Below are positions 8,288-56,290 of a stretch of DNA of 64,000 nucleotides, one piece after another (position 1 is the first letter of the stretch; each line of letters begins with the position of its first letter). Source of the DNA: Camillea tinctor (Eukaryota > Ascomycota > Sordariomycetes > Xylariales > Xylariaceae). The position numbers were made by a program, and so were the translations under genes. The stretch is taken from NCBI GenBank assembly GCA_022578605.1, contig MU394061.1, positions 770,046 to 834,045 on the forward strand. Direction: 5' to 3'. Below the pieces are notes generated by a model, which saw nothing but the letters and a program-made list of their open reading frames with translations, did no database searches and was not told the origin of the DNA.

Positions 8288-9837
8288 TTAGAGTCCCTTG
8301 GATTCTGCCAACCATATTTGTTGTTTGACGGAGAAACGGTCCGTAATCGGGCTCAAGGTTGTCTTTTTACAACCCTTTTCTAGCTGTACATTATTAAATC
8401 GGTCTGCAATCCAAGTTAAATACTCTGCTTGTGCAGCCTGGAACGACTCTAAAACACTAGGGGTTAGTAATTGCCATATTTGGTAACCGTTTTACTGTTT
8501 AGACCGTATCTTGGGAGCCAACACTCATACACTTAGCCATAGTAGGCAGCTGTGACTCCAAGACTGGGCTGGGACAGGCCAAAAGGGGGAGTAAACGACT
8601 AATAAAATTACTCACGATCATGGTCAAGGTCGGGATAGAGTATAAGCTCTGCCGTTGACTCAGGAAATGCGGTACATGTCTCGTTGAAATCATCCTCGCA
8701 GAACTCTGCATATGTCAATGTGTCACCGATTCCCTGCACAACAAGCATCGGCGCAGCTAGTGCGTAGGGCCCGGCGCCATTGTATCTCTCTTGCCAGTCG
8801 ACAACGAGCGGGTGGTTAAGCCAGCTTGTGTTTTTGTACAATTCTGATTCGGTTAAATTGCCATAGAGAGGGGCTCCCGTATATAAGCAACCCTGGTCCG
8901 CCAATGGAATCCGGCTAGCAACAATATCGCCAATGTAGTCCTCCAATTTGATGTCAGGGAAGAGGCGCGACAGCGATTGGATAAAGAAAATGGAGACGAC
9001 ATCGCCGACTGGTCCACCATTTGCTCGACGGAACGATTCCGGGATTAACCGCAAAGGGCGCAAGGCGGGAGCCCCAGAGACGGCCCCGATGAAGCCACCC
9101 GTGGCCTTCCCCGGCCTGGCCTCGCGTTCGTTAACCCGCCAAGCAGTCATCCCACCTTCGCTATGCCCGATAACGACCCACTCCTTAGACATTAGATTTC
9201 CCAGGGCCTTTCTGGCAGCTTGGAGACCGAAACTGACATCGCCAGCATGTAAAGCACCAGACTCATACATGAACCCCTGGGGGATATCACTGCCCTGGCC
9301 AGCATAATCAGGTGCAATGACGAGAAAGCCGCTCTGAGCAAGAGCAAACGGTCCTTCCCATTCGTAATAGAGGGTTTTGTGATTTGAAGGCGCGCACTGC
9401 CGAGTCCCGCCCGCTGTACCATGAGTCCAGACCACGGTTCGAAGGGGTTTATCCGCCCCAATAGGATTAGAAAAAGGAATCAGAACGAACGCTGTCGCCG
9501 GGATTGGGTTGCCATCAATGTCCTCGCTCATATAAAAAAATCGCGATAGCGACATGCCGGCAGGAATCGTCCATTGCTGAGCACTCTGGTCTCTCGAGAG
9601 GTCTTCCCACTTGACCAAGTCACCAGCAACATATGCAGAGATGTTGGTGGGATTTGCGTAGAAAGGGTCAGTAGCGACATCTGTGCTAACCCATCTGCCG
9701 GACTCGTAGGCAAGGGCATCCCTAAAAGCGGTCTGGCAATCTATATTGCAATTGGGGGAGACATCGGCAGCGATGGTGTAAGTTGAAAAAATGAAGCTTG
9801 CCAAGGCAACAACGGAGAGGTGTCTGAGAGACATCAT
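8288..9837 (-). CDS. secretory lipase / alpha-beta hydrolase (LIP family)
   Basis: Extracellular lipase-type serine hydrolase. Two exons (9837-8616 and 8448-8288) give 460 codons plus stop, the usual size of fungal secretory lipases. Signal peptide MMSLRHLSVVALASFIFSTYTIAA. WTHGTAGG forms the oxyanion region, the catalytic Ser is in GHSEGG (about residue 226), the Asp is probably in VQGIGDTLTY, and the His in LDHDQSF (about 406), just before the intron junction. Ending the gene at the first stop (8608) would cut it right after this His. Reading through the 167 bp intron adds a family-like tail (AEYLTWIADRFN...KGC). That intron (8449-8615) is an introner-like element, listed separately. The promoter faces a long gene-free region. 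Confidence 0.88.
8449..8615 (-). mobile_element. introner-like element (copy A) forming the lipase intron
   Basis: A 167 bp intron, donor GTGAGTAATTTT, branch TTACTAAC, acceptor TTTTAG. It shares blocks with copy C: CCCCCTTTTGGCCTGTC near the 5' end, a TATGGCTAAGTGTATG block in the middle, and ATGGCAATTACT before the branch. The other introns of the window do not resemble one another. It is spliced in the sense of its host gene. Confidence 0.78.
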
Positions 9838-12800
9838 CCCTTTAAGATATTGTGTTGCCAGATACTCGAGAGGTAGTTAACACACGTAAACCAAGTCGTC
9901 GTCAATGCTTAGCTAAGTGTTGAACAACATAGTTAGGTCTCGGTCTTATATAATCATAAGTATATGACGATCGTCATCTTGAACCTACTCAGCAACCCAG
10001 TAGTAACAGCAAGGCCGTGGTCAGTCGAATGTGCCGACGGGTCAAACATCGTAATCAGCACGTAAGTGGGGATAGAACCCGAGGCATGGAAAACGGCAGG
10101 CAAACCAACGGCTCTTAGAGACATACCATACTCACGATAAACCGCGATACAAGGCTTTTAAGTCATCTGCCGTTTAGGGGTACCGTAGGAAGCCCGAAAA
10201 AAAGACAATGGCAGGTCGTTGTCTCTAAGTGCTTACGAACAGAAACCGACATAAAGTAAGGTAGGATTGAATCCTTTCCTGATATGGCAACCATACCCCA
10301 GCCCTTTAGTACACATCACGATTCTTGTGGTGCTTATCATCACCTGAAAAGGAAGAGATCAAGGGTCCATGCCATTGATTCAGGGATCTTGACTGTCTTG
10401 ATTGCGGGGTACAACAGAGAAACAAAAACAAGGCGATCCAAATCGGGAGAAGTGATTGTATATTGTGCAGTAGCGTCTGCACTTACATGTCTACCTAGGT
10501 AATCATTATACTAACCTAGGTTAGATACTTATATGGCCCATGACCCATCAACCAGGTTTCATTTTCCTCTACCTTACCTGCTGTGTTCTGGGTCGGGAGT
10601 TTCTCATAGCTTGTTGGCGTAACTTAATCTATACATATTGGGTTTTCTTTTCGTATTGATGAAATATATCTTACAAGGTTTTTAATATCTTCTTACTTCC
10701 TTTTGAACATATATAAAGACATTAGTGAGATAGCAATCACTTATGTCTCGTCAAGGACGGTACGTTGAGTTACAAATAACATCACACAGCCGCATGTTCG
10801 ATTAGTAGTAATTGTTTCTACTCATAAGCTACTTTGGTGGGGGGAAAATCTATTCGATGTCAACACGTAAAGAGACAGGCAGCTAATAAAGTAAACAGAA
10901 TCTCGTTTAGTCTCTTTCATTTCCACACCTCTCAATCGGATACAAGAACAATGCTACAAGGGACAACAGAGCTCTAGCCACTGTAAGCTAAAAAGACAAA
11001 GGCATTTTTAATAGACACCCTATGTAATGTCTTTGTCTCTTCCATTTAATTTTTAGTATCATAGCTGCACGTTTCGAAATAAATTCATAGTTGAGGATGT
11101 TCTATCCTAAATGGTCAATTCCGGATCGAGACTCAAGTAAAGCATAACTATACTATTACTATCACCATCATCAAGAGTTACATTTTTAGGTCAAGTCCTA
11201 GGTATAATCCTCGACACTTATTACCAGATGTACTTGATCATACAAGAACAGGTAAGATGTGCCAAGCAGACCGAACGGATCTTTGGTGTTCTTAATATGT
11301 AAACACGGACCCGTATTACCGGAATTGGGTCGTCTGCAGTCACCCATGTGCAGGAACCGCTTACTGTCTAGGTATACAGTTAAGGACTTACTTTGATGAC
11401 CGTAAAGTGGAATGCGAGGCATGTGGTAAGCTACATACCAGCTTAATCAGTAATATAAAAATAAGTCCCACCTAGTAATTCATTCGATATTACTTAAAAT
11501 TATATCTTCTCTCAATTTATCCCTCTTTTTGAAAAAAAAAAGGGGGGGGGAAGGCAAGTAGGAGAAGAAAGAAGCATTCTCTTTGAAAGTAATGTAAATT
11601 GAAAGTCTTAAATTTACAAGCATTATCATCTTCTTTATTTGTTTTTGTTTTATAAAAAAGGATTTACTATTTATAACTACCTAGGTAGTCTTCATTTCTT
11701 TATAAGGATAACAACAATAAAATCTGTTATATTAAATATTTAATTATTACCTTAAAAGTTGAGTTTATTGCAGCGATTGTGGCCACATATACTGCAATAA
11801 ACTTTAAAGTCAGTCAGTCAGTCTCGAAATTCAGATACTCTTTTGTAAGGTACCGTTGAGAACTCTAGTTAATTTAATAGTGTTGATGGTCCACTGTACG
11901 GGTTTTGCTACTCCGTACAAGCTTAAAACTGTGTATATCATATTAGGACCTAAAATTATCAAACGTAATACATCATAATTTAAATATAATCAAAGTAACT
12001 AACACTGAAGTTGAATTATATAGTGATACAGCGTATAGGATACCACAACACAAGATACATGGCAGTACATATCTTATTAAGGACATAGGTAGGTATATAT
12101 CATTGTATGATATAAATAAAGTTGGTACAATTATTTAGCTTTAATATATCACGAAAGGATCTGAGCTATCTAAGATGCATCAGTCTTCTTGGGATGGAAC
12201 ATATGTGTTATTGAGGGCTTAGCAAGAACTCAGATAATTATTATCTCCTTGTGAGGGAAATAGAACTATAACTACCAACAGCAACAAAAACTTTCTCCAT
12301 CCAGGGCTTAGATCGCGACACATAATTACTATAACCTTGGAATAGCTTAGGTATGTTCAAAGCTCTCTAGTTGTGGTGCTATTTTGTAATGTAAAGATAT
12401 ATATTATCACGAGCACATTAATACGGCTTTCTTTTGGAGTAAACAGCGAACAGAACTTCTCTTTACACCATCTGGGTAACATATTATATTTCGAAATATA
12501 CTGAAACTGTCATGATACAATAATTCAATCTCTTGAGGCGTTTGTTGGGTTTTGTTGGGTATTTATGCGTTGCTAGGTTTCAGCTCCTAGTAACAACAAA
12601 GTGCATACACAGCACACATTGATCTTGTCCATAATTCCTCATCTTATTAAATGAGGCGATAGGTGAGGGAAAGGATGAAGTGTACCAGTACAAGAGAGAG
12701 TCTGTCCATTGGCGTAGGCCCGCTATATATATACATGTAGTAGTAACATAGTACCGTATAGTGGAGTGGTAACCCCATATTCCAATACGTCCTGCCATGG

Positions 12801-13159
12801 TGCTACATAGTTAGCAGCCAATACCTATCCCTGTCCCTTCAAAGTCTGTTGCCAAGACATGATATTTGCATAACAGCATTGAGCCACCCCTAGGTGCGGC
12901 CATTCAGCCCTTATGCATAGGTCCGCTCATAAGCCAAGCAGATTTCGAGTGATATAAATGTTGGTTTCTCAGGTTTGATTTTACAAAAGAGTAAACCACT
13001 TTCATCAGTCAATATTAGATCATCCCTACCAACGCATAAATCATCAATTTAATGAGCTTTTGACATCTTATCATGGTAATGGGATTAATTAAATCCAAAA
13101 CTACTACGACCTTGAATCACGACTCCTCTTTCCTTTAACAGAATCCAACCGACATTGAA
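9838..13159. other. 3.3 kb gene-free region
   Basis: No ORF on either strand looks coding. Visible items: the palindrome TACCTAGGTA at 10492-10501 and 11678-11687, a purine run (A then G) near 11534-11550, a perfect 12 bp hairpin at 11762-11803, and a stretch at about 12203-12310 faintly resembling the solo-LTR family of this window. Otherwise AT-rich and unremarkable. Confidence 0.4.
11762..11803. repeat. perfect 12 bp inverted repeat, 18 nt loop
   Basis: AGTTTATTGCAG at 11762-11773 pairs exactly with CTGCAATAAACT at 11792-11803. The loop contains TGGCCA. It could be a tiny MITE remnant or an RNA hairpin; no neighbouring gene explains it. Confidence 0.5.
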
Positions 13160-15059
13160 ATGGATAACCTCATTTACGAGACACTGGTAGGTACGGAAAT
13201 TCGTCTACTTAAAGTCTGTCCTGGTGAAATCGGGGACCCTATCAACTGTGAGATCAAACGTATCCCATTAGATACGGACCCAAAGTATATCGCCCTATCA
13301 TACGTCTGGGGTGGTAATTCAACCAAATACAAGATCGATATTAATAATCGCGATTTCTCCATCGGCGAGAATCTCTATTTCGCCATCGATCAGCTTAGAC
13401 ACTATAACAAGAAGTTTGTGAGGTACTTTGTTTGGATTGACGCAATTTGTATCAATCAAAATGATACCGCTGAGAAATCAAAGCAAGTAGGACGTATGTT
13501 AGAAATATACGCCCGGGCACATTCCACGATCGCTTGGTTGGGACGCCCTGAACCCGTGGACGAACCGTATTAGTTAGTGACCGTTTTTAGGATTCATCTC
13601 CTTCTTTCAGCCTGTCCCGGGAGTGAAAGTTGCCTGTATAACCTAGACCTATGAGATTTGACTCCCGAGACATGGTTTCAGGATTTAAAAAGTTCCCGAA
13701 GATGGCAATTACTGACTCCTTATATCACTGCGAGTTGTTATTTGAGAAGATTGTGGGAACGCAAGAATTTGTCCTAGAGGCCATGAGAAGAACTGGAGAT
13801 TCGATTGCACTCTTTGAAATGAAACGATGCATAGAAAATATCATGATTAACCCCTAGTTTACTCGTGTTTGGACGTTGCAGGAGTGTACCATTGGAAACT
13901 ACTGCAACACTTGCGCAATATCATTCGGCCGCTATTCAATTTCTTTGGAGTCATTCATGAAGCAATTCGCTGTCACAGATTTACGTGAAACGGCTCCAGC
14001 TACATTGGGGCACATGGACTATCTCAACGCGTGGTCAGAAATCAATGCCACACACGAACTTATGGATTGGATTGTCAAAAGAGGCAGATACTTTTTTTTT
14101 TTTACCAAACCCTGAGGACAATGAGGCAATTGCAACGGATCAGTTGTTAGGCTTCTCGATGCGACAGCACGGCGACAATGTAGTCAGCTCCATGATACCA
14201 TCTACGGGGTCCTGGGTCTCTGGGTCTCTGGGAATTTGTACGACGAAAATCTCTTCCAAAAATTCTAAAGCCTGACTATGAAACCTCGTACGCGGATGTT
14301 TGCCGTCAATATTCCGGGTATCTCCTCGAAAACACTGGCGATCTCAGAATTATTGCAAAGAGTAAGTCAAACCTCCCGGCAACAGAACCATCATAGGTCC
14401 CCGACTTGAGTTATCTCGACCTTCGTTCAAACCACGTGCAATTTACAACAAATAAAGAACAGGTAAAAATATCATCAAGTGGTCGGGAGCTTTCATTGTC
14501 AGGATACCAACTGGCGTCTATCGTAGACACTATGGACTCGAGCTGTCACAGCTCTTCCTTGCTCCCCTAGGATTGGTTAATACAGCGTATCAATCAGTTC
14601 GAGGAAAGGATCTTGAGGCGGGTGGTTGCATATAAAGGGATAACGATTGAGGCAGGACGCGACCAATTCATGGCTTATGAGCTCAAAAGAGACGTTAGTA
14701 CCAGAACTTACGAATCGTTAAGGGACTATCAACAGGGTGAGACAAAGACACGGTCAGTCGAGGGACAGGATCCGGAGCTGACATCGGCAGCACTTGAATC
14801 CCTAAGTCAATGGTAAAGGAAAGCTATGATGCTCATGGATACTGGACATGTCCTATTTCCAGACAATGAAATTATTCAAGCGAAGTCGAACGATCTGGTG
14901 ATAACCTGCAAGGGTGATGCTCTCCAATTTTTAGTACTTCGACCTATTACAACAAAGTTCCTACTCATTGAAATAAGGCGTCATGATCATCGGGGTTTTA
15001 GATTTGGTTTAAACAAATATCTCAAGGTTAAGGACATAAAAGAGTTCACCATTATATAA
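13160..15059 (+). pseudogene. decayed heterokaryon-incompatibility (HET) domain gene
   Basis: HET-domain proteins take part in fungal non-self recognition. The first frame (13160-13573) carries the opening HET motifs (PKYIALSYVWGG, VWIDAICINQND with the QVGRMLEIYARA helix). Conservation resumes at 13729 and continues through FTRVWTLQE, IYGVLGL and a C-terminal tail to 15059. Lesions: in-frame TAG at 13571, TAG where NPW-FTRVW should have Trp (13855-13857, a G-to-A change), a shift at the 12-T run 14092-14103, another break near 14175-14195, TAG near 14394, and TAA at about 14815. The first junction, 13577-13728, is a degenerate introner-like element whose splice sites have been lost (GTGACC donor, no AG). 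This is a dead copy. G-to-A lesions fit RIP or drift. Confidence 0.82.
13577..13728 (+). mobile_element. fossil introner-like element (copy D) in the HET pseudogene
   Basis: It aligns along its length with copy C: GTGACCGTTTTTAGGATTCA matches GTGAGTAATTTTGGGAGTCA, then CCTGTCCCGGGAG, GACTCCCGAGACATGG and ATGGCAATTACTGACTCC. The flanking HET reading frame joins in phase 0 across it. Its donor is now GTGACC and its acceptor lacks AG, so it can no longer be spliced normally. Confidence 0.72.
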
Positions 15060-16676
15060 AAGCATCGAGGTCCCGAGATATTTTATAGAACTGTTTCTAG
15101 TAAAAAAGGGAAAGGAAAATAAAAAAAAAGAGTTGAGCGTCCGATATCTAAATATAGCCTAGAATATCAAAGACTTATTGTAGTACGGAACTTCTGCTGT
15201 GACTTGATATTTTTAAAACCTTGGCCAAAGGTAATAGGTCAATTGTCTTTTCTCTGTTTCCCATGACTACGATAATTTCCTAGTAGACAGTCCCATCTAC
15301 ACTTCCCTTTGCACTTTGTTTACTTTACCGTCTAATACGGTCAACTTGAAGGGCTCCCCCATATTTTGATCCCCTAGCTTCTTTTATACAATTTGAGTAT
15401 TACATCAAAGTCACCTTATATCATTGCCATTAGCTTCTAGTCACAAATGACCTTCAACAAAGCTACGTGAACCTATGTATAAGCATATCCTGGAAAAATT
15501 AGATTTTGAAAAGTGATCTTGACAAGTATTCAGAAAGCTATAAAGAATAAGTTAATTGAAGCACAGGAGGTTATGAAATTGTGGTTTTATGTGCATCAAT
15601 ATTTAGTCACCGATTTTTGACCTAGGGATTTCTATTAGATTCTATGTAAGATAGGGACCTGCTGTATTCGAGACATGGAACTATGTCATACGCGATCTCA
15701 AAAGCTAGGAGGACCTGGTTTGTTGAATGCTACGGCCGTATGATCGTCAAGGTTCAAGCCAGTCTAGCCAAGTAGTGGATGTTTCTCAGGTGTCCAAGAT
15801 AAGCTGCACATTCACGGCATAGATTCGGCATAGTCTTCCCGAACCTGTGGAGTATAGGAGGGCATGGCATATGGCAAGGCTTTAACCTAATTCTGTAACC
15901 TAGCCAATTACCTAAGCTCCTAATTAGTGTATAAAAAAGCAAAAGTATGTATCATTAATACTGCTAGACTCAAACATATGACAGGCTAAAGATGGAAGAA
16001 ACGTGGATAAGCACGGATGGCTCTAAGTACGAATTCGGGGTTTGAGGTTGTGGCTATCTATAGCTTGCCACCAACTCAGAAGTTACACTGAGACCTCAAC
16101 CTCACCTAGTGCTTATTATACGTGCGCTTAACTGGCTCAGACCCCGGACAATCCTTCTGCTTAGTAACAATGCAGGTTGGTGAAGTCCGAAGTTGCAAGT
16201 CGCATATAAGAGTTGTGATTGGCTGAGTTTGTACCGAATTTGAGTTTCGGTATCCGACTGTCCCCTTCACTCTCAATGTTGCCGATACTGCATCTAAGGC
16301 TCCGAACGGAATTTCTATCTCTCTCTCTCTCTCAAAAAAAAGCAATCTTACATGTATTTCTGACAAGAGAGGAGGAGGTAAGATGAAGAAGAAAAACTTG
16401 TGCTATTTCTTTTCTTTTCTTTCCTTCCCCCTCCCCCCTAAAATTCTCCCAAGCCTTTCTTACAGTATTCATTTCATGAAGTTTCCTCACTTATTCCTTC
16501 CACTCTCCTATTGTACCTTGCCCTCAATACGTCCGAATGCCGAATACAGCTTCATGACAAAACTGTCAGCCGTGTAGCGTTTTCGGATTTCTTCTACCGT
16601 ACCCCCTCCACGTCCGATAGATCCGGATCATTAAGCCGTCGTACATATTAATATCGGTGTCCCGAAACGTATATAT
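15060..16676. other. intergenic region, 1.6 kb
   Basis: AT-rich at 15060-15500, no coding signal. A short CT microsatellite lies at about 16316-16333 and a pyrimidine-rich promoter-like tract at 16400-16450 ahead of the FSH gene. Confidence 0.4.
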
Positions 16677-17519
16677 ATGAGTCCTCCGCATAAATTTTCG
16701 CACACTATGTGTAGTTGGTATCTCAACGGCAAGTCTGCCGAAAACCCAGATCCAACACTACACTTACCACGCATGCTCTGCCTCCACGGCGGCGGCACCA
16801 ATGCACGCATCTTTCGCGCACAATGTCGGGCACTATCGAAGACTCTAGAGCCGTACTTCAGGCTAGTATATGCGGAAGCGCCTTTTGAGTCGACAGCGGG
16901 ACCGGACGTGTTGTCTGTATATGCTAACGACGGTCCCTTCAAACGCTGGTTACGCTGGCTTCCTGATCACGCAGTGGTGGATGATGACTCTGCGATACAT
17001 GACATTGATGCCTCCCTGAAAGCAGCCATGGATGCCGATGATGCTCTCGGTGCTACTGGCCCCTGGGTTGCGCTCATGGGGTTTAGTCAAGGCGCCAAGC
17101 TAAGTGCTAGTTTATTATTTCGGCAACAAGTGCGACTTGCGCGGACCGGACGAGCCGATTCAGATTGGAAGTTTGCTGTCTTGATGGCAGGGCGCGCTCC
17201 CCTCGTGAACCTAGACCCGGACATCTTCCAGTCTTCGCTTCTGAGCGGCCCTTCACAAATCGGTCTCAGCGGTGGGCCAGACCTGATGGAAATGATGAGT
17301 GAGAACCACATTTTGAGGCTACCTACAATACACGTTCACGGCATGGCCGATCCCGGCTTACATCTACACCGCGAGCTGTTCGAGCAATACTGTGACCCGT
17401 CTAGCGTCCGATTGGTGGAGTGGCCCGGTGCACATCGGGTCCCATTAAAGTCGACGGATGTGCAGCCGGTGATAGATGAGATCTTGGAGGTGGCGAAGAA
17501 AACCGGGGCGTTGAAATAA
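16677..17519 (+). CDS. FSH1-family serine hydrolase
   Basis: An alpha/beta hydrolase of the fungal FSH family (Pfam FSH1), a single exon of 280 codons. MLCLHGGGTNARIF is the family's N-terminal strand and oxyanion motif, the nucleophile Ser is in GFSQGA (about residue 137), the Asp in HGMADPG, and the His in WPGAHRVP near the C terminus. All three catalytic positions are present. Relatives include yeast Fsh1 and the LovG-like thioesterases that release polyketides, but no polyketide synthase lies in this window, so the substrate is unknown. The start at 16677 precedes the core by about 32 residues; the next Met (MCSWYLNGK) is an alternative. No signal peptide, so probably cytosolic. It is convergent with the MFS permease. 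Confidence 0.9.
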   Translation: MSPPHKFSHTMCSWYLNGKSAENPDPTLHLPRMLCLHGGGTNARIFRAQCRALSKTLEPYFRLVYAEAPFESTAGPDVLSVYANDGPFKRWLRWLPDHAVVDDDSAIHDIDASLKAAMDADDALGATGPWVALMGFSQGAKLSASLLFRQQVRLARTGRADSDWKFAVLMAGRAPLVNLDPDIFQSSLLSGPSQIGLSGGPDLMEMMSENHILRLPTIHVHGMADPGLHLHRELFEQYCDPSSVRLVEWPGAHRVPLKSTDVQPVIDEILEVAKKTGALK

Positions 17520-17936
17520 TAACTGGGCGGGCTGTCACGATAGGCGTTGGATTTTGAGAAATTACGATACGGATTAATGTTCATTTCCCGGTACAAATAG
17601 ATCCTAACAAGATGCATATAGAAATGATTAGACTCCTATTACAATCACAGAGCAGCTTATGGCGCATGAATATACCCGAAAAGCCGGTGATCTATCGATG
17701 TATTATTTCCCGTATCGTCAAGTCATCGATCATCCTAATTTATTTTTGGTGGTGGGGGGTCGATCCAGAGGGCTCTCTAGAAGCCATTACCGAACCCTGC
17801 CAACTACTAGATAAGTATTGCGAATCAGTTTCCTCGAAACAACCATATTACAATATACACTATAGAGTATTTATCGAAGTACCGACGATAGTAATTGCCC
17901 AACCCTCTAGTGTAGAACTACCACGTATATGGCACG
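17520..17936. other. convergent intergenic region
   Basis: 417 bp between the FSH hydrolase and the MFS permease stop codons. No feature recognised. Confidence 0.5.
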
Positions 17937-24143: not shown

Positions 24144-24207
<64 letters not shown>

Positions 24208-36807: not shown

Positions 36808-39073
36808 CTATGCATGAATAGCCTCCTGGACCTGTGGATAGACTTGTACCATGGCTTGATACAGCTCTGGGTGGTTTTGCATCAAGACCTGAGGCTCCCA
36901 AGCAGTGGCCACAAAAATTGTATCAATTCCACTGTTGATAGGGGATGTGAAGATATTGCAGATTTGTAATCCAATGAGGAATGCAAATGCAACGATAACT
37001 AATTCATTCATTTTAGCAGTGTCCCAGGATACCAAAGCTACCAAGCTGTGGAATTTTGCGAGGAACTTACTCGGAGTATAACCGCCGTCCGAGTTATACG
37101 CTGGGCGCGTGAATAGCTAGCAATCACCAACTCAGTATCGATTCGACTACCTTAACTCTTGTGCAGGGCATCGAAAGGGCTCTACTTACCACATATAGGT
37201 ACGACAGTAAAGCACAAGCATAGCCAACAAACGTACCACCAAAGCCAAGCACCGGACCGATCAAGCATTCATTGATCAGAGCATCGATACCGCGTTGCTT
37301 GATCATGCTACACACCATTAGCCGGAGTGAACACCACACAGACATTCGCCGATACATACGTCCAGGTATCTTTAGCCGCAGGAATATAAGCTTTCCCATA
37401 AAGCGCAATGTAAGAGAAGGCATAGCGGTTGAGGAACTCGGCGGCCCATTCAAGGAAGCCAATAAGGCAACCCAGTATGCAAAACATAATGCTGCCGAGA
37501 ACATTGCCCTCTGCTGCCTCTTGTTGCTGCGCTACTGAGCAGATTTGCCTCAGGAAGTTGATAATGGCAACTAGAAGCGATCCAAGAGATATCGATCCGA
37601 AGGAGTAGGTCAAGCTTCTGCGCAGGGCTCCTCGTGTAGCACCCTTGGGGAAATTATGGGAGTGGAAATACCAGCAGCCATAAACACCTGAGATGGTTGC
37701 GTGAATAGTATTCTTGAGCCACTCGCTAAACCAGTACATGGCAAAGGTAACGAATACAAGCAAGCCGATGACCTTTGCATTGCTACAGCCACCTGCCCCT
37801 TCGGAACAAGCCGCGCTATTGGGAGAATACTTAGCATAGATGGCCACCAGTGTGACCGAATACCATGCTGCAAAAGCGACGCCGACTAAGCCACCAATTG
37901 CGCTGACTGTATAGACATGGCCATAGTTCTTCGAAACTTGCACAGCTGTCTTAAGCATCAAGGCACTGAAAGGAATGCGCGGGATCCACGTCTACGAGTC
38001 TGCGTATCAGCAAGATATAAACAAGGTCGGGGCTCTGCTAGCTCAACTTACAATAAAGCAGAATATCAGGAACGCGACAAAGACCAAGAACACAATTCCT
38101 CCTGACCAGTAGTGACGGTAAAGCATGTAGATAGCAGTTACCAGGCCCTAGGGGAAACGCGTTAGTCGACATGCTCTCAGCTTAGGGAATAGAAGAAACT
38201 GTGTCTAGGATAGCCTACAAATACAATATTGAGAATGCCTGTGACCCAGATAAGTTGCTTCGGGAAGAATCTAATGAGGAGCATATAGCAGGAACTCAAC
38301 ACGACCGCGACACAGAGGCAGAAGATGCTGTGAATTAAATATAATAGTGTCAGCGATAGACTCGGGAACAGGTACTAAGTGTAGACAGCCCATGAGGTGA
38401 TCGTCACTAGGAAAAGGCCGACTAACAAGAGGACAATGGTATTGGTGTTGAGTCCAACTGCGCGACGGCCATCATAGATGCCTGAACCTTGAGAGATCTT
38501 GGTTGCAGCTAGGGATATGTTAGACATGTTATGCACTATTCCACTTACTGCACAGAAAATGCCATGCTTAGAAACTGGGGAGGAGACTCACAATAGCCTT
38601 GAATGGAGATGCCCGAGACAGCGACAAATCCAAGCATGACAATCAGGAACTAAGTAGGTACACATAGTCAATTATCAACCTCAAGACTTCGGTCAAGAGG
38701 AAGGGAGGAAAGGGGAGCTTACGAGAGCGCCAGCCCAGAGGTCCTGCATAAACGGTAGTCAGTAATGGCTATGTTGGATAACTTCTTTACTCTTGAGATC
38801 GTGTCTCGGGAGCTAAACCTCCTACGAACTCATACGCTTAGCTATGATATGACTCCCGAAATTACTCACATTGTACTTTGGCCGTTCTACTTTGAAGGCT
38901 TGGTCAAACATGGGCTTCTCTCCGACAAAACCATTGTAGCCATCCTGAGGCAGCGGTGCAGGGGCATTCTGGCCGTAGGGAACACCATAATGAGGCTGTG
39001 AGTTCCCATGCTGAGGCTGTGAATTGTTGTAATATGCAGCTGCTTCTCCAGCCTGCTGCTGATTGGACGCCAT
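36808..39073 (-). CDS. PNS1: PNS1/CTL choline transporter-like membrane protein
   Basis: A multi-pass plasma-membrane protein of the choline transporter-like family (yeast Pns1; substrate in fungi uncertain). Ten exons: 39073-38870, 38743-38723, 38649-38592, 38508-38376, 38327-38219, 38147-38052, 37991-37360, 37307-37190, 37116-37071 and 36998-36808. They sum to 535 codons plus stop, in frame. The N-terminal 60 residues are Gln/Asn/Pro-rich and cytosolic, then VERPKYNDLWAGAL, a family landmark. The core reads WISEWL-like YWFSEWLKNTIHATISGVYG, RGALRRSLTYSFGSISLGSL, CILGCLIGFLEWAAEFLNRYA and KQRGIDALINECLIGPVL, ending in PELYQAMVQVYPQVQEAIHA. Exon 2 is only 21 bp. Intron 1 (38744-38869) is an introner-like element sitting inside PKYN|DLW. 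It looks functional. Confidence 0.92.
38744..38869 (-). mobile_element. introner-like element (copy B) forming PNS1 intron 1
   Basis: A 126 bp intron, donor GTGAGTAATTTCGGGAGTCA, branch TTACTGAC, acceptor TATGCAG. It shares with copy C the 5' 22 bases, an AGCTAAGCGTATG block, GGGAGG/GCTCCC-type pairing, CTCCCGAGACACGATCTC and CATTACTGACT. It lacks the CTTTTGGCCTGTC block, so it is an internally shorter variant. Confidence 0.85.
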
Positions 39074-42169: not shown

Positions 42170-42225
<56 letters not shown>

Positions 42226-46457: not shown

Positions 46458-46745
46458 TTACTAGGCACACGATCTTATCTACGTTTTTCCCTACTTTATA
46501 TTATTGCTTATTATCGTGATAACTAAAGTGCAACACAATACACCATGTTAAACATGGATTAAAAGTTGATTTAACAGCCTTTCCCATGTCATATTCTTAT
46601 TTGTTTGTCGTGATCCTCTTCTCGAGCCTCAAGCTATTTGGTAAGGACTTAGCTATCGGACTCTACTAACCTACTTTCTATAGGTAGAAGGACTACTGTT
46701 TAAATCGACCCTTTCTATCCCCCAATATAGTTTGATATATCCTAC

Positions 46746-46870
46746 TGTCACGATGGGCCAAGCAAGTGCTTAGGTAATTAATACGTTGTTGTATGAGGAA
46801 CTAGACTGCAACTACGGATGTTACTGTTACCTATACAAGAACCTTCTCTGTTCCTTCTTAACCCCTGACA
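46746..46870 (-). mobile_element. short solo LTR (125 bp)
   Basis: Runs TGTCACGATGGGCC...ACCCCTGACA, ends TGTCA/TGACA. Flanked by CCTAC and CCTAT (4 of 5 match), a probable 5 bp target duplication. About 85% like the inverse of 47243-47370 by eye. No internal domain or partner LTR in the same orientation. Confidence 0.8.
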
Positions 46871-47095
46871 CCTATTGAGGGGGCTTTTGGCGACGTCGCA
46901 ATATGTACACTCTATAAGAAAGCGTAGTTGTTTTTGTCACACAATATATATATATGTATATATAACCAAAAGAACATACTAGCAAAGAGCATACCTATAA
47001 TATACAAATAAGTTATTGTTTTCGCAAGCAACCCCTATACTCTCAGGTCTCGACGTTCGAACTCACTCACAGGCGGCAATAGGTGTATACCAAAA

Positions 47096-47220
47096 TTTCA
47101 AGATAGATCAAGCAAATTCTTAGGCGATAGGTACCTTTCTGGGCAAAGAACATACCACGACTATATGACACCGTTACATATATAAGTGGATACCCTCTTT
47201 GTCCCCCATAACCCCTCACA
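47096..47220 (-). mobile_element. degenerate solo LTR (125 bp)
   Basis: Same length and order of blocks as 46746-46870 (ATCAAGCAAATTCTTAGG, CCGTTACATATATAAG, CCCATAACCCCTCACA) with many substitutions. Its TGTCA start has become TTTCA, and no target duplication remains. An older insertion of the same family. Confidence 0.6.
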
Positions 47221-47242
47221 CGGTATAGAACTTCGTAATAAG

Positions 47243-47370
47243 TGTCAGGGGTTAGGAAGGAACAAAGAAGAGATACTTATATATAGGTAGCAGTGACATC
47301 CATAGTTGTAGTCAGTTCCTCGCACAACAACGTATTGATTACCTAAGCACTTGCTTGGTCCCTCGGGACA
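47243..47370 (+). mobile_element. short solo LTR (128 bp)
   Basis: Runs TGTCAGGGGTTAGGAAGG...CCCTCGGGACA and contains a TATATATAGG TATA-like box. Flanked by ATAAG and ATTAG (4 of 5), a probable 5 bp duplication. Opposite in orientation to the two preceding copies, so they are separate insertions and not the two ends of one element. Confidence 0.8.
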
Positions 47371-48932
47371 ATTAGCAAAAGGACCCTTCGACAATATAAA
47401 AACTTTCACCCAGTCTCTTGGGTATCAACAACTTTAAGATGTGGCATTTCACTAAGAGCATGGGTGCCAGAGGTGATAGACCCGAAGGTACACGGAACAA
47501 GAAAAGAATTTCTATCTAATGTATCTGCATTATATCTATTTATAGTTCTAGTTCCTCAAATAAAAATACCATAATCACCTAAGTTGTTGCTAAATACCTC
47601 GTGGCAATATAAATCAGAAATACGCAGGTATACAGATAATAAATAACGTTATAGTAACTTGGATAAGGGATTTTATTACGACACATAGCCATGTAGTTTC
47701 AAGTTAATACTTTATCTTAGAATAATATAAAGGAGCTGGCCTAATTGACTTTATATATTTCTCTGGACCATCTGACCGTATATCGTTTAACTCATTTCTA
47801 TAGTTCTCGAAACCCCTCTTGAATGGAGGCCTAATTGCTGAATATATTCATCTACTGGTCGAATCAATGTCGCACTACCATGTAATATCACCACCATTTC
47901 CCGATATAGCAGGTGGGCGTACTATGATATTTCATATTTAGTCAACATGCGTCAAACATAAAGACTCTATCAAATTATGAAATAAGGCTTACCATTGGTG
48001 ACTCAAGGAGCGGATTGAGTTGCCACTTTGAGAGAAGTCATAGGGATCCTTCAAATACTGGCGATTCAATAGAGATGAATTTTCGTAAATTGGCTACATT
48101 ATACGATGCGTGGTTTCTATTAGGTACATGCTATCGCTAGGATCTAGTGTTTCTATAGTTCTGGTTGTCAATGAGAAAAATGTATAGTCCTAAACAACTC
48201 ACGTAAGCTAATATAACATCGGAGTCAGTAGGACTAGTTGAACGGCAGTAGTCATATCATGGGTCTTTATTCCAGTTTACAAAGATAGAGACGGGTCAAT
48301 GATAGGTTGTTAATATACTACAATGATGTAAATTGAATCCTTCGGACTCATAGAGCCTCAGCTCACCGGGTTGGGTTGCCCTTGGGGAGAACCATGAACA
48401 GCAGTTTTATCTACCGATTGGAATTTAACAGAATCTAGGACATTGCCTTCATCGTAAATTATTTGAACCCGACTAAGTGAGTGGGTATAGTTAGTATGGT
48501 GAGGCCTCTAGTCCTAGGTTATTTTGATTGGGCAATTCTTACGAGCTACGACCCTGTCAGCAACGACTATTGGTTAGCCTTAAGACAGGGCTGATTCTTC
48601 ACGCCAGGAATATAATCACCGAAAGTTTAGCACTGACGAGTATCTTAAGATCATGACCAAGCACATGGCGTCACCTCGTAGCCCCGCGTAAATGTCCTAG
48701 TCTAGTTGTGATGTGACTAGTGAGGAGGTCTTGGCAGTGGTAGTTCTACTACCCCCGAAGCTTCGATAGACTGGAGAAAGTTACGATGAACTCATCTTCA
48801 CTTCTCACAACGCAGATCAACCCGGCTTCTAATACCAGGCTGCAATCGACCTTAACAAGATATCCTGTGGGGGCGAGGCATCACTAGAGAGACCGCACAA
48901 CGATATAAGTTGAATAGCAAAGACTCGACAAT

Positions 48933-49835
48933 ATGGCGTCTAAAGACAACTATTTAAAACAAGAATCCTCACGACCACCAAATCCCAATCGTTCCCGATA
49001 TACTCATTCTCTAAAGCAAGACCCGAAACACAGAAGACAAGACATATTCAAGATGAGCGGGTCTCAAGCCCAACCATGCAGTTTCGCCGACATTGCAATC
49101 TCATACCGTATCTATATCCTTGATGACCTTCTCGCAGAACCCCAAGTAAGTGTGCAGATTTCAGTTTTATAGACTGCGAATATATCTTTGGTTGAATCTA
49201 TTCTTTCATTACTGGTCTCTTATGTCAGGGAGGAAATCCTTAAGTTCTACGACAGTGGCTAATTCAGCTCGACACGATAGGAGATAGTCCACGATTGGTA
49301 CCGTAACGTGTTATACATCAGTCAACGACATCGTCAGGGCAACTCCTTTGCGCCGATTGAGATGTCCCACGAAATCTCTATTTTTGATCTCTCAGTTGGA
49401 GACACAGTCTCTTCTATCAATATCAGCCCCTACACCGGTCCCCACTGTGTAGAACTGGACAGTTCGTGCACATATCTCCAGGCCTGTGTTGATGGCGGCA
49501 ATGTTTGGATCAGTCCGGAATCTATGGCTGTGACCAACTTTGAATCTGTAGGGAAAGGAACTCGGGCCCAAAGGTCTAGTGAAGACTTCATTGCTGAAGT
49601 TGATCTACGATCCGGGAAGATGCGCCATAGAGTTAATGTGCCAGAGAGCGATAGGAATGCTACAGATGGGAGACATGTGGCATTTTCAGCTCCTGCTATT
49701 CGTTTTGCGAGCCGTTCATCTAGCAGTGGCCTGCCCGTGGTCGATGTCGCAAATGACCCAATCATTGATGTGCTCAAGTCGAAGTTCTCGGTCAGGACAA
49801 TTTATGTCACGTCACGGAATATTATGTTGGTATAA
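48933..49835 (+). CDS. unidentified ORF pair, possibly one two-exon gene
   Basis: A first frame from 48933 (polar, with FKMSGSQAQPCSFADIAISY) runs into a good donor (GTAAGT at 49146). A second frame, 49308-49835, codes 175 residues (SHEISIFDLSVGDTVSSINI, VELDSSCTYLQACVDGGNVW, SAPAIRFASRSSSSGLPVVD). I could not find an acceptor that joins them cleanly, because AG sites at 49164, 49171 and near 49231 lead to stops. No domain recognised. It may be a decayed gene; the surrounding region is repeat-rich. Confidence 0.35.
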
Positions 49836-51799
49836 TGTTTCGACACAAGATGGTCAATTAGCTAAGTGATCAGATTACAACCAAAAGTCGAAAACAAGCT
49901 AGATTACTAGTCACTGCTATGCTAGCATGGCAATCAGCGGGATATACCCCTATTCAATAGCAGCAATGTATATTCGATGTCTTTTTCATTTAGGGTTTAA
50001 GCTATAAACTACTCAATTAGTTAGATTCGATAAAAGGTACCTATCCGGTCATTTCCTTTGATGTTTCCGCGATTTGAGCTTCAACTCGCTCAACACATAT
50101 GCTAGGAACCAGTACTTTGTTGAACAGAAGAATGATCTATGCAATTACCCAAAAAGTCATCCAGCCAATTTTATTATCCACTATAAAAAGAACTAAATAG
50201 AGTAACTAGATATAATATGTAGTCACAAGACTAGAGACCGGTACTCACAGTAGCACATCTAAAATGACCAAATTACAAGGCTAGCTAGCAAGAGTCTTGT
50301 ACATTCTCCACCAAACGTATCCCTAAACTTACATTCATAGACTTACATCGATGAAACCTCATTCATATGTAAATACTATTTATAACCACTATGTAGCCGC
50401 AATGCAGTAAGCATGTGGTGAATTATCTATAATCCACATTACTCTTTTGAGAAGATTGTTCGGTGAAGTGCATGAATCCAATTGAATGGCATCTATAACC
50501 TACTTGTGTGATCAGTCTGATTTCTGATAGTTAGATACAGTCATCTTATCAGATATCAATGAACTAACCTGCGATTTACGGCTTATGCCACCTTCCAGTG
50601 CTTCCATTTCGGTGAACTCAAGGCTTGGCACACCTACCTCAAGCTCAGGGCTGACGGTAGGCCGTAGATGTATTATCCAATCACGACTCAAATAGAAAGG
50701 GTTGTCAAAGATCCTTGCAATAATACATGATTTATTTCTAAGTAATCAACTCGACAGCCAATAGGGAAATATAGAAGAGTCTCAGCATTTATAGCCCCTA
50801 TACCTATAATAGAGAAACTAGAACTTGCCTTGAAACTACAACAAACTTTATTTATCATGACATTTGGGTATGTAATGAGTTTTAGCACGTAAGCTTCGAG
50901 AACATAGCTGATGACTAAAACCACAGTTCAGAAGAATCTTTGTTTATTATTCGGTCAGCACCGTTGGCAAGTTATAATTTTTAGTCTTATTTAAAATATT
51001 ATATACTACAAAATGTTTTTCTAATTAAGCACATAATGGAGAACCATAATAGGATAGAAACTTTTTCTTTGTTCCCACCTAACCCCTGGCAGTAAGGCTA
51101 CCTGTAATGCATTCATATTAGACACCGTTCCCAATAAACTAGGGAAGTTGGATGTATATTATATATGGGATAGATGCGTAGATAGTAATGTTGTTCTAAG
51201 ACGATTCTGCCTGTTTTAGTCAAGTGTATGCAGTTCGTAGATTATGGATGGCTCAATCCCTTAACTTTTGCATGGAGCTTCCGAGTGTCCCGTGTTAGAG
51301 GGCAGGATATTCTACCATGGGCATAGACAGGGGAAATTCTAACCAAAACTAGCAATATAATACCTGAATAATGAGTGCTTCTGTTCGTTGGATCCATATT
51401 TACCTATATACAAGATTGTCGTGGGCAAAGGTGAACGCTAGTTGCCCTCTGGTGATTATCTCAGACATGGCACCCTACAACAAAGACGATGTGGATACTA
51501 GATATCGTTGGTATATTGAATAGATTAAAGACTATAAAGGACACCTACCTAGTTACAAATTAAATAGCTTCAAACTATACGCACCACAGTATTGACGTCG
51601 TTACTGGTCTTAATTTAATACCGTTGCTCTCAGGCAGAGCTGCAACCTAGTAGCCAAATATTTCGCGTGGTTCTTGGGGTGAACGGCCTTCTAAAGTCAT
51701 TCGATAGATGCTGGTTTCCATTTTGGATACAGCTTATGCATTCAATTTCGAAATTAGACAAATACATGCTCGATTATCCTCATTAATAAGACGGACTAT
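49836..51799. other. 2 kb intergenic region
   Basis: A possible exon remnant on the minus strand at about 50567-50665 (SPELEVGVPSLEFTEMEALE) and a partial solo-LTR end at 51055-51091. Nothing else supportable. Confidence 0.35.
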
Positions 51800-52937
51800 T
51801 TATTCAACCTCATAAATTTCCTCCAACATAGATTCCAAATATTCCTTCTGCTCCATAAGAAATAGTCGGATGTTAGTTAAATCATATGGACGGTGCGTCA
51901 CTGCCCGGCGACGCTCCTCCTTCAACTTAGCACGAAAACGTTCATCTAGGACATACAATCTGTACTCTGTGTATTGGGGGTAGAGCTCATCAAGGTTGCT
52001 TATACCCCGGACGCCGGTAAGTATGGTCTCATCTCGAACAAATGGGGACTTGGGCCGCAGAGCAGTCACCATGGAGATACGCTCACGACCTCCAAATGCC
52101 TTCAAGGCCTGGTGATAGATATATCTTCCCTGCATAACAACAGCCGTTCCCTGAAAGAGCTATTAGTAAACATATATGATCCAGGGTCTATAAAAGTTAC
52201 CATTGCGGGACCCCGAACTTTTTTCTCCTCCCCATTAGGCAGCCTGATCGCAGTCTCGCCACCGACCATATCTGTGCAGTCGGAGACCATTGTCACGCAG
52301 ACAAAAGGGAAGCTATCATAGTGCCATGCGAATTCGGTCTTGTCATTATCAGTGAGTACCTTAGCATTCGGGTCATTGATAGAAATATTGATGTTGGCGA
52401 CTTCGTTGTCGAAGGCTGGAACCAACTCAACTCCAGCAACCTCGGATATTTTGCCGAGGACTTCAGGCGAGTACCAGGCTTCATAAGTAAACGGGGCTCG
52501 TCTATAACTCGAAATTAGCACACAACTGCTGTCAGCAAATCTAATTTTAGCTAAACGTACTCGTAGCCCATTGCCCGTACCATATTGGGACTGAAGTCGG
52601 AGCTGTACCGGTAATTCTCCAGTACTAGGTCACTAAAAACCTCCCGCCTCATCTGCAGCATTGCCTCCTTGCTAAATAAAGGGAACGGGTCGCTGACGGC
52701 ATTCGGAGAGATCCCATGGCCGTCAAGCCCAATCTCTTTCATCGTATAGATCTTGGCGGGAGGTTGGTAGGCAAGATGTTCTTCTGGGTTCCATGCAACA
52801 GGTTGCGTCATACGAGCCTCGTCAATGAGAAAATCAGGGATTGGAGTGGTCGGCCGAGTAGCCTTCTCAACTTTAGGCCCAATGACATGAGGTGCCTTTG
52901 GGGACTGGACTGCCGGTACAATTGTCAGGCCGGGCAT
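51800..52937 (-). CDS. Fe(II)/2-oxoglutarate-dependent dioxygenase-like protein
   Basis: A probable non-haem iron oxygenase. Exons 52937-52561, 52501-52201 and 52150-51800, with introns of 59 and 50 bp, give 342 codons plus stop. The iron site is visible as H-x-D in FAWHYDSFPF (His186, Asp188) and a distal His in RYIYHQALKAF (about 239), with a downstream Arg. The spacing of about 50 residues fits the double-stranded beta-helix fold. ETAIRLPNGEE between them is typical of prolyl-hydroxylase-like and phytanoyl-type members. The N-terminal 60 residues are Pro-rich with no targeting signal, so it is probably cytosolic. Substrate unknown; no secondary-metabolism backbone gene lies beside it. It is an intact gene amid repeats and pseudogenes. 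Confidence 0.82.
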
Positions 52938-53820
52938 TTTGCTGTAGTATAAAGAGAACAGATTTATTTCTGTATTTATTGATTGCGAGTTGTCAATTTT
53001 TGTCTGTAATGGCGAGATAATAGTCCGCTGGAGAAATAATATATAGGTAATTGTGATTTATACTTATATCTTCATGGCTTGTGTCATGATAGGATAGTGC
53101 AAATGGAGACGGATCTCATATCTCTCCCAACTCGTAAGATAATGAAATCTCACAGGAGAATACATGCCGATGCATATCGTATTCATTGTAATTCCGCTAC
53201 GATTTCCTTCTATCACTCATGCTCCGATACTATTAGTCCTCTTCGGTTGTATGTCCGAAAAGCCTTATCTGCACAGAGCTACGTAGTTGTTAAAATCCCG
53301 ATTATCGCCTAATACTATGGATGCATCGGGTCGGCTGTTAGGTCTCGGTTTTAATTCCCGATCCCTGTAATTCCAAAGCTGATTATAACATTTTCATCTT
53401 GTGAAGTCTTCCCCTTCTCCAAAGTATTTGAAACGACGAGCCGTGATGTTGGGCTGTATACACTAGGTTAACCTAATCCTAATGAATGTATATATCTGAA
53501 GATCACTTTACTATTCATAATGCCTCGGTCACTCTTTTGGGAAGTTAGAAGGGAGCTACCCTGTACTGAAGCCTGTCATAATCGTTTCCCCTCGTCCTAG
53601 TCAGATCTATGAGCTCTGCTTGAGTTAGCTACGAAGATCCATTCTTCATAACCTATGTCAGCTTCTTTATAATAGTAAAGTATATAAGAGGATGTGATAA
53701 TCTACATAAAGCATCAAGTAAATTTCTGCAGCTTTTCCCTTGCCTATTCCAAGTCTAAATTTGTACCCTTTTGCTCTTTCTACTGAAACATGTTATGAAT
53801 TTTGACTCACAAAACACAGC
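52938..53820. other. intergenic region
   Basis: About 880 bp between the dioxygenase promoter and the truncated permease. No feature recognised; the missing 5' half of the permease is not found here. Confidence 0.45.
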
Positions 53821-54550
53821 TTGAAGAGTAAAAAGGTTACCCGTTGTGAAAATCACTGGCCCCCAATATTAAAGCACATCGTCACGGCACTTCTTGCCAC
53901 TACTGTCTTCTCGGCTGGCAACACATATGTTTACTGCGCATCAAGAAGCCTGTATGGCCTAGCCCTCGAGAAGTGTGCACCGAGGATTCTCAGCAAGTGT
54001 ACAAAAAAGGGTGTTCCGATCTACTGCTTTGCAGTGGTCATGCTGTTTCCGTTCTTATCATTTCTACAACTCTCAAGCAGTACGGCAACTGTGCTGGGCT
54101 GGCTCATCAATATCGCCACCGGTGCGATATTGATTGATTACATCGTTATATTCATAACGTATATTTGCTTTCACCGAGCTTGTACGGCGCAGGGTTTTAA
54201 TCGTTCCATTTTGCCCTACTATGGCCGTTTTCAGCCTTGGTGTGGCTACATCGCCCTGGCCTGGGAGGTGATGATCATTATATGTTACGGATACGAGAGC
54301 TTGAGCCCTTTCGATGCGAGTGCTTTTGTCACTGCTTACACAATGCTCATCCTGGCGATTTTTTTTTCTTGCCGGATACAAGGTAGTCAAGCGTACCAAG
54401 TGGCTCAAACCAGAAGAGGTGGATCTCACCCGGGAGGCAGAAACCATCACAGCATATGAGAATGCGCTCGAAAATGCTCCTGTTAGCTTCTTCAGGGATT
54501 GCTATAACTTCTCTCTAGGTAAAGTGAAGATCACCAAGATTGGAGATTAA
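53821..54550 (+). pseudogene. amino-acid permease, 5'-truncated and frameshifted
   Basis: The C-terminal half of an amino-acid/polyamine/organocation permease of the yeast general amino-acid permease type. It begins near TALLATTVFSAGNTYVYCAS and runs through SRSLYGLALEKCAPRIL, KKGVPIYCFAVV and GWLINIATGAILIDY to the last membrane helix. A run of nine T at 54359-54367 shifts the frame; eight would keep it. The remaining tail (YKVVKRTKWLKPEEVDL) sits in the next frame to 54550. The first 300 or so residues, with TM1-6, are absent upstream. Non-functional as it stands. Confidence 0.82.
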
Positions 54551-55658
54551 GATACCGAACTCGCTGCATATGCACGATATCTAGAGAAGTTCGTAAGTTT
54601 ACACACGAAAGACTTAAATTTGCCGACCATGACTTTTTAGACTACACCCTTCTGAGATTCATAATGTCTCATATTCATTGCAGCTCAGAATTGAAAATCA
54701 CTGTACATCAAATGCCAAGAATGTCGCCTCTGGCTCCCTTAATAGCCAACCACCTACAAACTACGTCTAGAGGGATGTCCCTGTAGCTCTTGCACTCCCA
54801 CAAGGTTCCATTTCAAAGGTGAATATAAATTAATGCTACACGGGCCAGAGCCTGGATCTATGCCGTAAAGGCATAATCGACTTTGAAAAAAATACCCCTG
54901 ATGGGCCGTCGTCACCATCAACTAGGTCAGATATACCACCACGGATTGCCATTGCTATGTTTACTTGCACTAGGACACGAAAATCGCTGTGGAACTGCAT
55001 TGTACGCTGTGCACGTTGGATCTATAGGGCCACGCATCGTGTGTACACTATATTAACCCAACTAGGAGATCATGACTAGGAAACTTCCCCACGTATCCCC
55101 CCGCATGACCCGACCACGCACGATTGATTACTACTAGGCACAAGGTGAAGTTCAGCTGCTTAGGTTAACAAGGCTCGGGTCTAGGTCCCGAGCCATTGCC
55201 GATCCTATGGAAGTTAAGGTACCTATAAAGTTTACAAAATAAATCCAAGTATTATCAAGGGCTGTTCGAGGAGACACTTTCTCGGATATACTCATGCAAA
55301 AGATTATTTTGTTGTATGTGCTATGCGTAGTCCTGCTAGGCCTATTGATTTGTCCCTTATACAAAGCTAATAACCGGCTCGGGACATATTAAACCTACCA
55401 AGTATAGACCTAGAGAGCAGGTTAAGACCTGTGAGGGTAAATAAACAAATAAGACATAGCGGGGTATTGGTTAGCAGAGATTGTAGATATATACCCGGGG
55501 AAAACTTTAATATTCACGACCTAAGGTAAATGTTGACTACATAGCATCTTATTGTGGTCAGTGTTTGGAAATAAACTGTAGGTAGGATTTAGGTATTCGA
55601 CTAGTAGGTAGGTACACGATCTTGCATTTCTCAAAACTATATTGCTTTCTTACAACCA
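54551..55658. other. intergenic region
   Basis: 1.1 kb between two broken genes. No ORF or repeat is supportable. Confidence 0.4.
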
Positions 55659-56111
55659 TTACACCAATGTCAACATGTTCTCGGGCAGACTCTCTGGGTC
55701 ACCTATCTCTTGTACAATGGACAGAAACTCTTCCGATGAGATACCAATATCTTCAAGAAAGTCCATATTACTCGTTTCATGGGGACGCGAGCAGTGTGAG
55801 TGATACTCTGAATCTGTGATCATTGCTAGGGTACTCGGCTCGTTATCCGATGATAGTAACCTATCATGTCCCTCGTTTGCTTCAACCTCTGACCCTTCTG
55901 TGGGGAATGGGTTTAGTGTTTGGTGGCCTTGCTGCTGGACCCGGGCGATGAGCTCCTGGAATAGTTTTTCTAAGTGACGCAATTCCGATATCCTAGCTCT
56001 AGCTACTCTATTCCCTCGGGTAATCAAGTTTCTTAGGACTTGGTGTGCTAACTGGCGGCATCCTTGATAGTCAACTTCACCTGGGAAAAGAGCATTGACC
56101 ATAGTGACGTG

Positions 56112-56290
56112 CTGTAATAAAGAGAGTCAGTAACTGTCATGCTAGGTAACCTCTTGCTCTTGAGACCTTGTCTCGGGAATTTAACCTCCCACAAGCGCAT
56201 ACGCTTGGCTATAGTTGGAAAATTTGACATTCGGGCCGAGCCGAGACAGGCCAAAAGGGGGGCGGATAGATGACTCCCAAAATTACTCAC
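56112..56290 (-). mobile_element. introner-like element (copy C) in the transcription-factor gene
   Basis: A 179 bp intron and the longest copy. Donor GTGAGTAATTTTGGGAGTCA, then CCCCCCTTTTGGCCTGTC, TATAGCCAAGCGTATGCG, GGGAGG/TTCCC pairing, GAGACAAGGTCTC (a perfect 5 bp hairpin), branch TTACTGAC, acceptor TTATTACAG. Its donor is 2 nt from the acceptor of the neighbouring intron (56293-56443). Confidence 0.87.

Follow-up and report, generated by a model that had tools for sequence, protein, structure and literature searches.

The origin of new spliceosomal introns is an old open question, and the closest described systems differ in where such introns are found to land. In the fungal order Xylariales, insertions of repeated introns have been described as seamless, at seemingly random sites and free of duplications (PMC8469720, PMC12403724). 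For the introner-like elements of Dothideomycetes, a preference for AG/GY sites and for codon phase has been claimed, and inverted repeats have been seen by others (as cited in PMC8469720), whereas the ascomycete families are described in PMC9860276 as outliers with neither inverted repeats nor duplications. With random sites reported in Xylariales and splice-like sites in Dothideomycetes (the latter as cited), there has been little sequence clue to the inserting machinery. We analyzed 64,000 nucleotides of Camillea tinctor (Xylariales; contig MU394061.1, positions 770,046 to 834,045), hereafter the window, which forms the terminal 64 kb of a contig of 834,045 bp, its end included, in a 44.7-Mb assembly (GCA_022578605.1). 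A preliminary description had reported related introns in four unrelated genes of this window. We found that they belong to a genome-wide family of well over a hundred related introns, which offers a rare handle on intron gain and makes Camillea a further case in an order where repeated introns abound. With a probability of roughly 0.55, we propose that this is an introner-like family whose hairpin-forming intron RNA was reinserted into transcribed genes by machinery preferring A|TG (the bar marks the intron position).

Family members in the window and the genome

A covariance model was trained on 27 copies, including the three live introns of the window and leaving out the fossil one. In a scan of the window, this model recovered the introns at 56112-56290 (minus strand, E = 1e-38), 8449-8615 (minus, E = 3e-36) and 38744-38869 (minus, E = 2e-24) and the fossil at 13573-13730 (plus, E = 2e-18), as well as a fifth, decayed copy at 53714-53874 (plus; 47 bits, E = 9e-10). 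The preliminary description had assigned the three introns and the fossil to a single family, which was confirmed by direct reading, by mutual alignment and by these E values. Its coordinates of the three introns were exact; the fossil, placed there at 13577-13728, was rightly taken as a family member but spans approximately 13573-13730. The sequence blocks said to be shared were present, although GTGAGTAATTT is exact in three copies only, with GTTAGTGACC in the fossil, and an exact CCTTTTGGCCTGTC block is confined to two copies. Allowing one mismatch, GTGAGTAATTT matched three times in the window compared with 1.7 in shuffles; thus this block alone is not significant, whereas the full-length match is.

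The host genes of these copies appear unrelated, their names being partly those of the preliminary description (PNS1-like gene, transcription factor, HET pseudogene). The 167-nt copy at 8449-8615 interrupts a secretory lipase/alpha-beta hydrolase gene (flanks gatC|AGTC). The protein spliced at this copy was 100% identical over all 460 amino acids to an NCBI protein of C. tinctor, and the public model of that protein excises the copy exactly. The 126-nt copy at 38744-38869, which has an internal deletion, lies in a PNS1-like gene (AAT|GAC), where the exon downstream, up to the following donor, is 21 nt long (38743-38723). The full-length, 179-nt copy at 56112-56290 lies in a putative fungal transcription-factor gene (TC|CACG), next to a 2-nt microexon, TC (56291-56292, minus strand), predicted from the frame between the introner and an upstream intron at 56443-56293 (minus). 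This upstream intron looks ordinary; it begins GTAAGTAATCTGGGAA, resembling a worn 5' end of the family, which bears on the preliminary statement that the other introns of these genes are unrelated. The fossil, in a HET pseudogene, has lost its acceptor AG, and its aligned ends are preceded by A and followed by TG, as at typical sites of the family. The fifth copy has lost its donor and continues into a reading frame that, from its translation, is amino-acid-permease-like.

A genome-wide search, suggested in the preliminary description, revealed further copies well beyond the window. With one copy as query, at least 28 matches were obtained, itself included. In pattern searches scored against reversed-pattern controls, the 5' end was found at 131 places and the 3' end at 153 (up to three mismatches; 16 and 5 in the controls), and an internal 17-mer at 104 (up to two mismatches; 3 in the control); a second internal pattern gave a weak contrast (213 versus 87, up to three mismatches). 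Mark-recapture on the complete lists of end matches with up to two mismatches (67 and 81 places, 31 in common) yielded about 175 copies, a rough figure because both ends decay together.

The 146 copies with GT-AG ends that we read fall into three sets. Set 1 (95 copies) was found by similarity and end patterns, set 2 (36) was selected through end patterns and examined once the site bias described below was already known, and set 3 (15) was found by the internal motif only. For the end patterns, 98 of the best 100 of the 131 5' places were taken, together with the 81 having up to two mismatches among 100 of the 153 3' places. The 124 model matches came down to 99 distinct places when duplicate entries for a place and faint shadows on the opposite strand were removed; four of the 99, the fifth window copy among them, had no GT-AG ends and were dropped to give the 95. 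The acceptor of some copies was reassigned to the closest AG within 5 nt, and the fossil of the window was counted in this way, as a non-TG site. From the later match lists, 38 of 40 matches were used, and 16 of 20 from the internal-motif list (at least 45 bits). Among the best 100 of the 104 internal-motif places, 33 were known from this motif alone: one lay in a locus already read (L003), 20 were fetched and 12 were left out. A match of at least 45 bits was obtained at 15 of the 20 fetched loci and none at 45 bits at the other five.

Of the 96 aligned copies, 91 cover 120 or more consensus positions, and these diverge from the consensus by 8 to 36% (median 17%). The best pair among them was 88% identical, the median pair 71%, and near-identical copies were absent. 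The family was therefore not one of near-identical mobile introns, the kind with which it had been compared, and its spread appears to have been an old burst. The proposal that length varies through internal loss held up genome-wide, as copies range from 55 nt to approximately 215 nt. The 55-nt copy (L036 1465-1519, minus strand, contig C64) retains little beyond the two family ends but still folds as a hairpin (-22.9 kcal/mol), and the same GH13 gene has a 168-nt copy. Several copies may share a gene, with three within approximately 1.1 kb in L018 and three within approximately 0.7 kb in L003; in the latter, the plus-strand copies 1501-1677 and 1695-1855 are separated by a 17-nt exon. On contigs of at least 400 kb and known size, among those with matches, 27 of 70 listed places lay within 100 kb of a contig end versus 18 expected (P = 0.01). 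Small contigs C74 and C109 also hold many copies, in a comparison limited to contigs with matches, and the window is itself a contig end with five copies. In the family alignment, C to T changes were somewhat more frequent before A and G (19% and 21%) than before C and T (14% and 11%), which hints weakly at mutation by a RIP-like process or linked to methylation.

Most of the copies read are predicted to be GT-AG introns in unrelated genes, with a coding frame that stays open once the copy is taken out in sense. In set 1, the frame was open for at least 150 nt on both sides after sense removal in 62 of 95 copies, compared with 9.1% of random 178-nt excisions, and when the acceptor was shifted by 1 or 2 nt this held for 18 and 22 of 91. 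The antisense frame was open for 150 nt in 14 of 95. The corresponding counts in set 2 were 19 of 36 in sense and 2 of 36 in antisense. Set 3, with 13 of 15 in sense, weighs most because splice sites play no part in a search by the internal motif; GT-AG ends were present in 15 of the 16 internal-motif matches of at least 45 bits. In addition, when 10 of the 91 available spliced peptides were submitted to Pfam, the domain match spanned the splice junction in nine (methyltransferase, P450, FAD_binding_3, Sugar_tr, NmrA, Hydant_A_N, HET, Tannase and ADH_N), the exception being a DUF2838 match. The genome-wide pattern thus supports the earlier view of an introner-like family in sense orientation in coding sequence. 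That the similarity arose by chance, or through shared ancestry by gene duplication in place of spread, is scarcely credible: some hosts do belong to large gene families (methyltransferases, MFS), but the host domains are unrelated, and two methyltransferase paralogues carry their copies at different places (L065; C53, L025/L106).

Insertion sites

The sites show a strong preference for N|T, N|TG and A|TG; often, the intron splits an ATG directly after its A. Among all 146 copies, the base after the acceptor (+1) was T in 122, TG followed in 85, and the site was A|TG in 54. The bias was present in each set, with T, TG and A|TG in 82, 59 and 36 copies of set 1, in 30, 17 and 13 of set 2, and in 10, 9 and 5 of set 3. 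Base by base, set 1 had C at -2 in 34, A at -1 in 49, T at +1 in 82 and G at +2 in 61 of 95 copies, and an A|T site in 46. In the flanking exons, by comparison, TG and ATG occupy 6.2% and 1.7% of positions, and 35 ordinary introns found mechanically had T at +1 in 8 and TG in 5; the difference between introners and ordinary introns was significant for both (Fisher P = 2e-11 and 1e-6).

Such a bias could have arisen after insertion, if copies that landed elsewhere were spliced badly and lost. The hairpin described below leaves GUGA and AG unpaired, so that CA and UG in the exons could extend its stem, and old copies do retain the T (23 of 25 below 100 bits). Ordinary introns of the same genome, however, have no such preference, non-TG copies can be spliced in frame, as the annotated lipase copy illustrates, and pairing between the flanks showed no association beyond independence. 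Selection on splicing could contribute to the bias, but ordinary introns are without it; as the explanation of the T or TG after the acceptor, such selection is distinctly improbable.

Target-site duplications were sought in the 95 copies of set 1 as three kinds of direct repeat of 2-6 nt, none of which was enriched; a repeat of at least 4 nt occurred in only two copies, both of 4 nt. We also rejected a 3-bp duplication (GTG at the donor, (G)TG across the acceptor), because splicing would then lose one base and because homologues at three sites show the intact ATG to be older than the insertion. A palindromic target or flank pairing was rejected as well, since the flank pairs agreed with independence (66 versus 64.3 for -1/+1, and 48 versus 46.4 for -2/+2). 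These results bear on the possibility that the family is a non-autonomous DNA element, the enzyme of which cuts at A|TG (in full, the palindromic CA|TG) without duplication and the ends of which coincide with splice sites by chance. In its favor, inverted repeats are present at both ends, the target is short and in part palindromic (-2 C, -1 A, +1 T, +2 G), and many introners elsewhere are DNA elements (PMC9860276). Although this is the main rival of the reading proposed here, we consider it unlikely: there is no target-site duplication, copies found by the internal motif are still mostly intronic and coding, the flank pairs are not associated beyond independence, and the preference is lopsided, with T at +1 in 86% and A at -1 in 52%. 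No match exceeded approximately 215 nt, although an element of much greater length would be poorly visible to the 178-position model.

Among the 73 TG sites with a called frame, 51 were in phase 1, 13 in phase 0 and 9 in phase 2. In 65 host exon pairs, the available TG dinucleotides were 40% in phase 1, 15% in phase 0 and 45% in phase 2; phase 1 was thus enriched and phase 2 depleted, and TG supply was rejected as the source of the phase bias.

To judge the age of the sites relative to the introns, we aligned homologues of three host genes (53 for GH13, 72 for MFS and 31 for the lipase, of 120 listed in each case). In the GH13 gene, which carries two copies, all 53 homologues have Met at the first split codon; at the second, 41 have Met and 12 have Leu. 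The split Met of the MFS gene is Met in 71 of 72. No row had a gap within 8 columns of the GH13 and MFS sites, and the lipase site is gap-free with a variable residue. Three alignments to solved GH13 structures concurred. Two intronless GH13 paralogues in the genome, at approximately 45% identity, cross both sites with Ile, Leu or Val there, and are too distant to show the empty codon. By these alignments, the split Met codon predates insertion at the three sites tested in depth, and the introns seem to have entered formerly continuous coding sequence, with no residue gained or lost, at the two GH13 sites, the MFS site and the lipase site.

The hairpin and a possible mechanism of spread

The consensus RNA folds into one near-full-length hairpin of -65.8 kcal/mol, compared with -41.1 for shuffles (z = -6.4). 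The 5' arm of the stem begins at donor nucleotide 5 and the 3' arm stops 2 nt before the intron end, which sets the GU and AG splice sites side by side. The common 3' ends TTAC and TTGT before the AG both pair with the 5' arm, TTGT via G-U. Single copies fold less well (mean z = -2.4), and among 53 copies of at least 140 bits, end pairing was better than in shuffles at the 5% level in 51%. Stem pairs were kept in 80.8%, compared with 80.4% when the 3' letters were redealt (7 of 500 shuffles as high), and double changes in the stem numbered 98 versus 82.7 in shuffles (18 of 500 as high). RNAalifold on 27 copies returned only 8 weak pairs, from the donor to the branch-point region. Covariation support for the hairpin was therefore rejected, as the fold shows in the consensus whereas the pairs are hardly better kept than in shuffles. 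Because the pairs are so little better kept, the fold seems to belong to the spreading form and not to the resident copies, in which it would decay after insertion almost as if unselected. There was no match to Rfam in the window, and one internal 17-mer had no exact match in IMG/VR.

On these grounds, we proposed that the family descends from a canonical U2 intron of approximately 177 nt, the RNA of which would fold end to end into one hairpin. The mobile form may have been the excised intron RNA, protected by this hairpin and reinserted into transcribed genes via reverse splicing into DNA or via RNA-templated break repair; the inserting machinery would have preferred A|TG, and proliferation would have occurred in a burst that is now old. 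The exact ends, the sense orientation, the mostly coding location and the lack of duplication fit insertion of intron RNA by either of these routes, and the A|TG bias is consistent with a step of endonuclease or integrase type, or with the inserting complex itself having such a preference. Tentatively, one may further picture a spliceosomal intron with a hairpin RNA being inserted by machinery with a short A|TG target, in-frame Met codons being favored, in a retrohoming-like process in which the spliceosome takes the place of a group II intron. If true, the family would stand as a fungal introner whose mobile RNA is structured and whose target resembles no splice-like site.

Several observations weigh against reinsertion of a hairpin RNA by A|TG-preferring machinery. 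The RNA intermediate and the inserting enzyme are both what we infer, and the A|TG preference is unexplained by the published reverse-splicing models considered, as is the phase bias by the mechanism proposed here. All three live copies of the window are at non-TG sites (0 of 3 at TG). At the GH13 and MFS sites the ATG is older than the insertion, but since these sites were picked for a Met in a recognizable motif they establish that this can happen, not at what share of sites; the A|TG sites in a methyltransferase and a glycosylasparaginase gene are gap-free, but the homologues shown do not keep the Met. The sense, coding distribution could also come from faster loss of other copies. The antisense frame was open for 90 nt in 37 of 95 copies of set 1 and for at least 150 nt on both sides in 7 of 15 of set 3. 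For 18 of the 95 copies of set 1, there was no frame with 90 nt open on each side. Very short exons adjoin some of these 18, including the 17-nt exon in L003 and, beside two of the three live window copies, the exons of 2 and 21 nt.

Comparison with known systems

Many introns similar from end to end in unrelated genes, the pattern that defines introners, were observed here. The family is thus real and of a known kind; its novelty lies in the target bias and the hairpin, and the mechanism is our interpretation. The A|TG bias, the full-length hairpin and the fifth copy go beyond the preliminary description, which had rightly recognized elements of the introner-like kind, citing Dothideomycetes and algae, whereas the host belongs to Xylariales, in which repeated introns had already been described. 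A literature search returned no paper on introns of C. tinctor, and no report of an A|TG target appeared in the titles and opening lines of the introner literature searched (insertion site or motif, Sordariomycetes, Xylariales), within a largely open-access collection. Taken together, the non-splice-like target bias, the precise ends, the lack of duplication and the end-to-end hairpin of the ancestral form place testable constraints on the inserting step.

Helitrons insert between A and T without duplication, and they have TC...CTRR ends and a 3' hairpin. The A|T insertion is alike, but the Camillea copies have GT...AG ends with inverted repeats, unlike the ends of Helitrons. With the DNA-transposon introners, the family shares the creation of introns by insertion and the inverted repeats, but it is without target-site duplication and carries both splice sites on the element (PMC9860276; Huff 2016 as cited there). 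It also differs, by its inverted repeats, from the ascomycete families of the same paper. In common with the Dothideomycete introner-like elements (PMC4457414; van der Burgt 2012 and Torriani, as cited), it consists of repeated spliceosomal introns, gained at new positions, at times two in one gene, and degenerating with age; stable predicted structures or inverted repeats are a further shared trait (for Dothideomycetes, as cited in PMC8469720). By published description, it is set apart by its A|TG site, which is not splice-like.

The sister stwintrons of Xylariales (PMC8469720 and PMC12403724) are closest. They come from the same fungal order and are likewise repeated U2 introns in unrelated genes, seamless, in sense and without target-site duplication. 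Both have terminal or near-terminal inverted repeats joining the terminal Gs, with a 5' arm from donor nucleotide 5, 3' arm variants that still pair via G-U, symmetry lost in older copies, and short canonical copies formed through internal deletion. For the stwintrons of Hypoxylon, a similar point has been made on the fold of the spreading form versus the residents (PMC8469720). The Camillea family, however, is a single canonical intron and not a twin intron, a reading that we rejected because a GGT start, with G before the donor, was present in only 22 of 99 copies; exact forms of five palindrome (WTTCTAGAAA) and NTIRE-10 sequences were found in 0 of 99. Finally, whereas the sister stwintrons are described as without bias in flanking exons, phases or sites, the Camillea family favors A|TG and phase 1.

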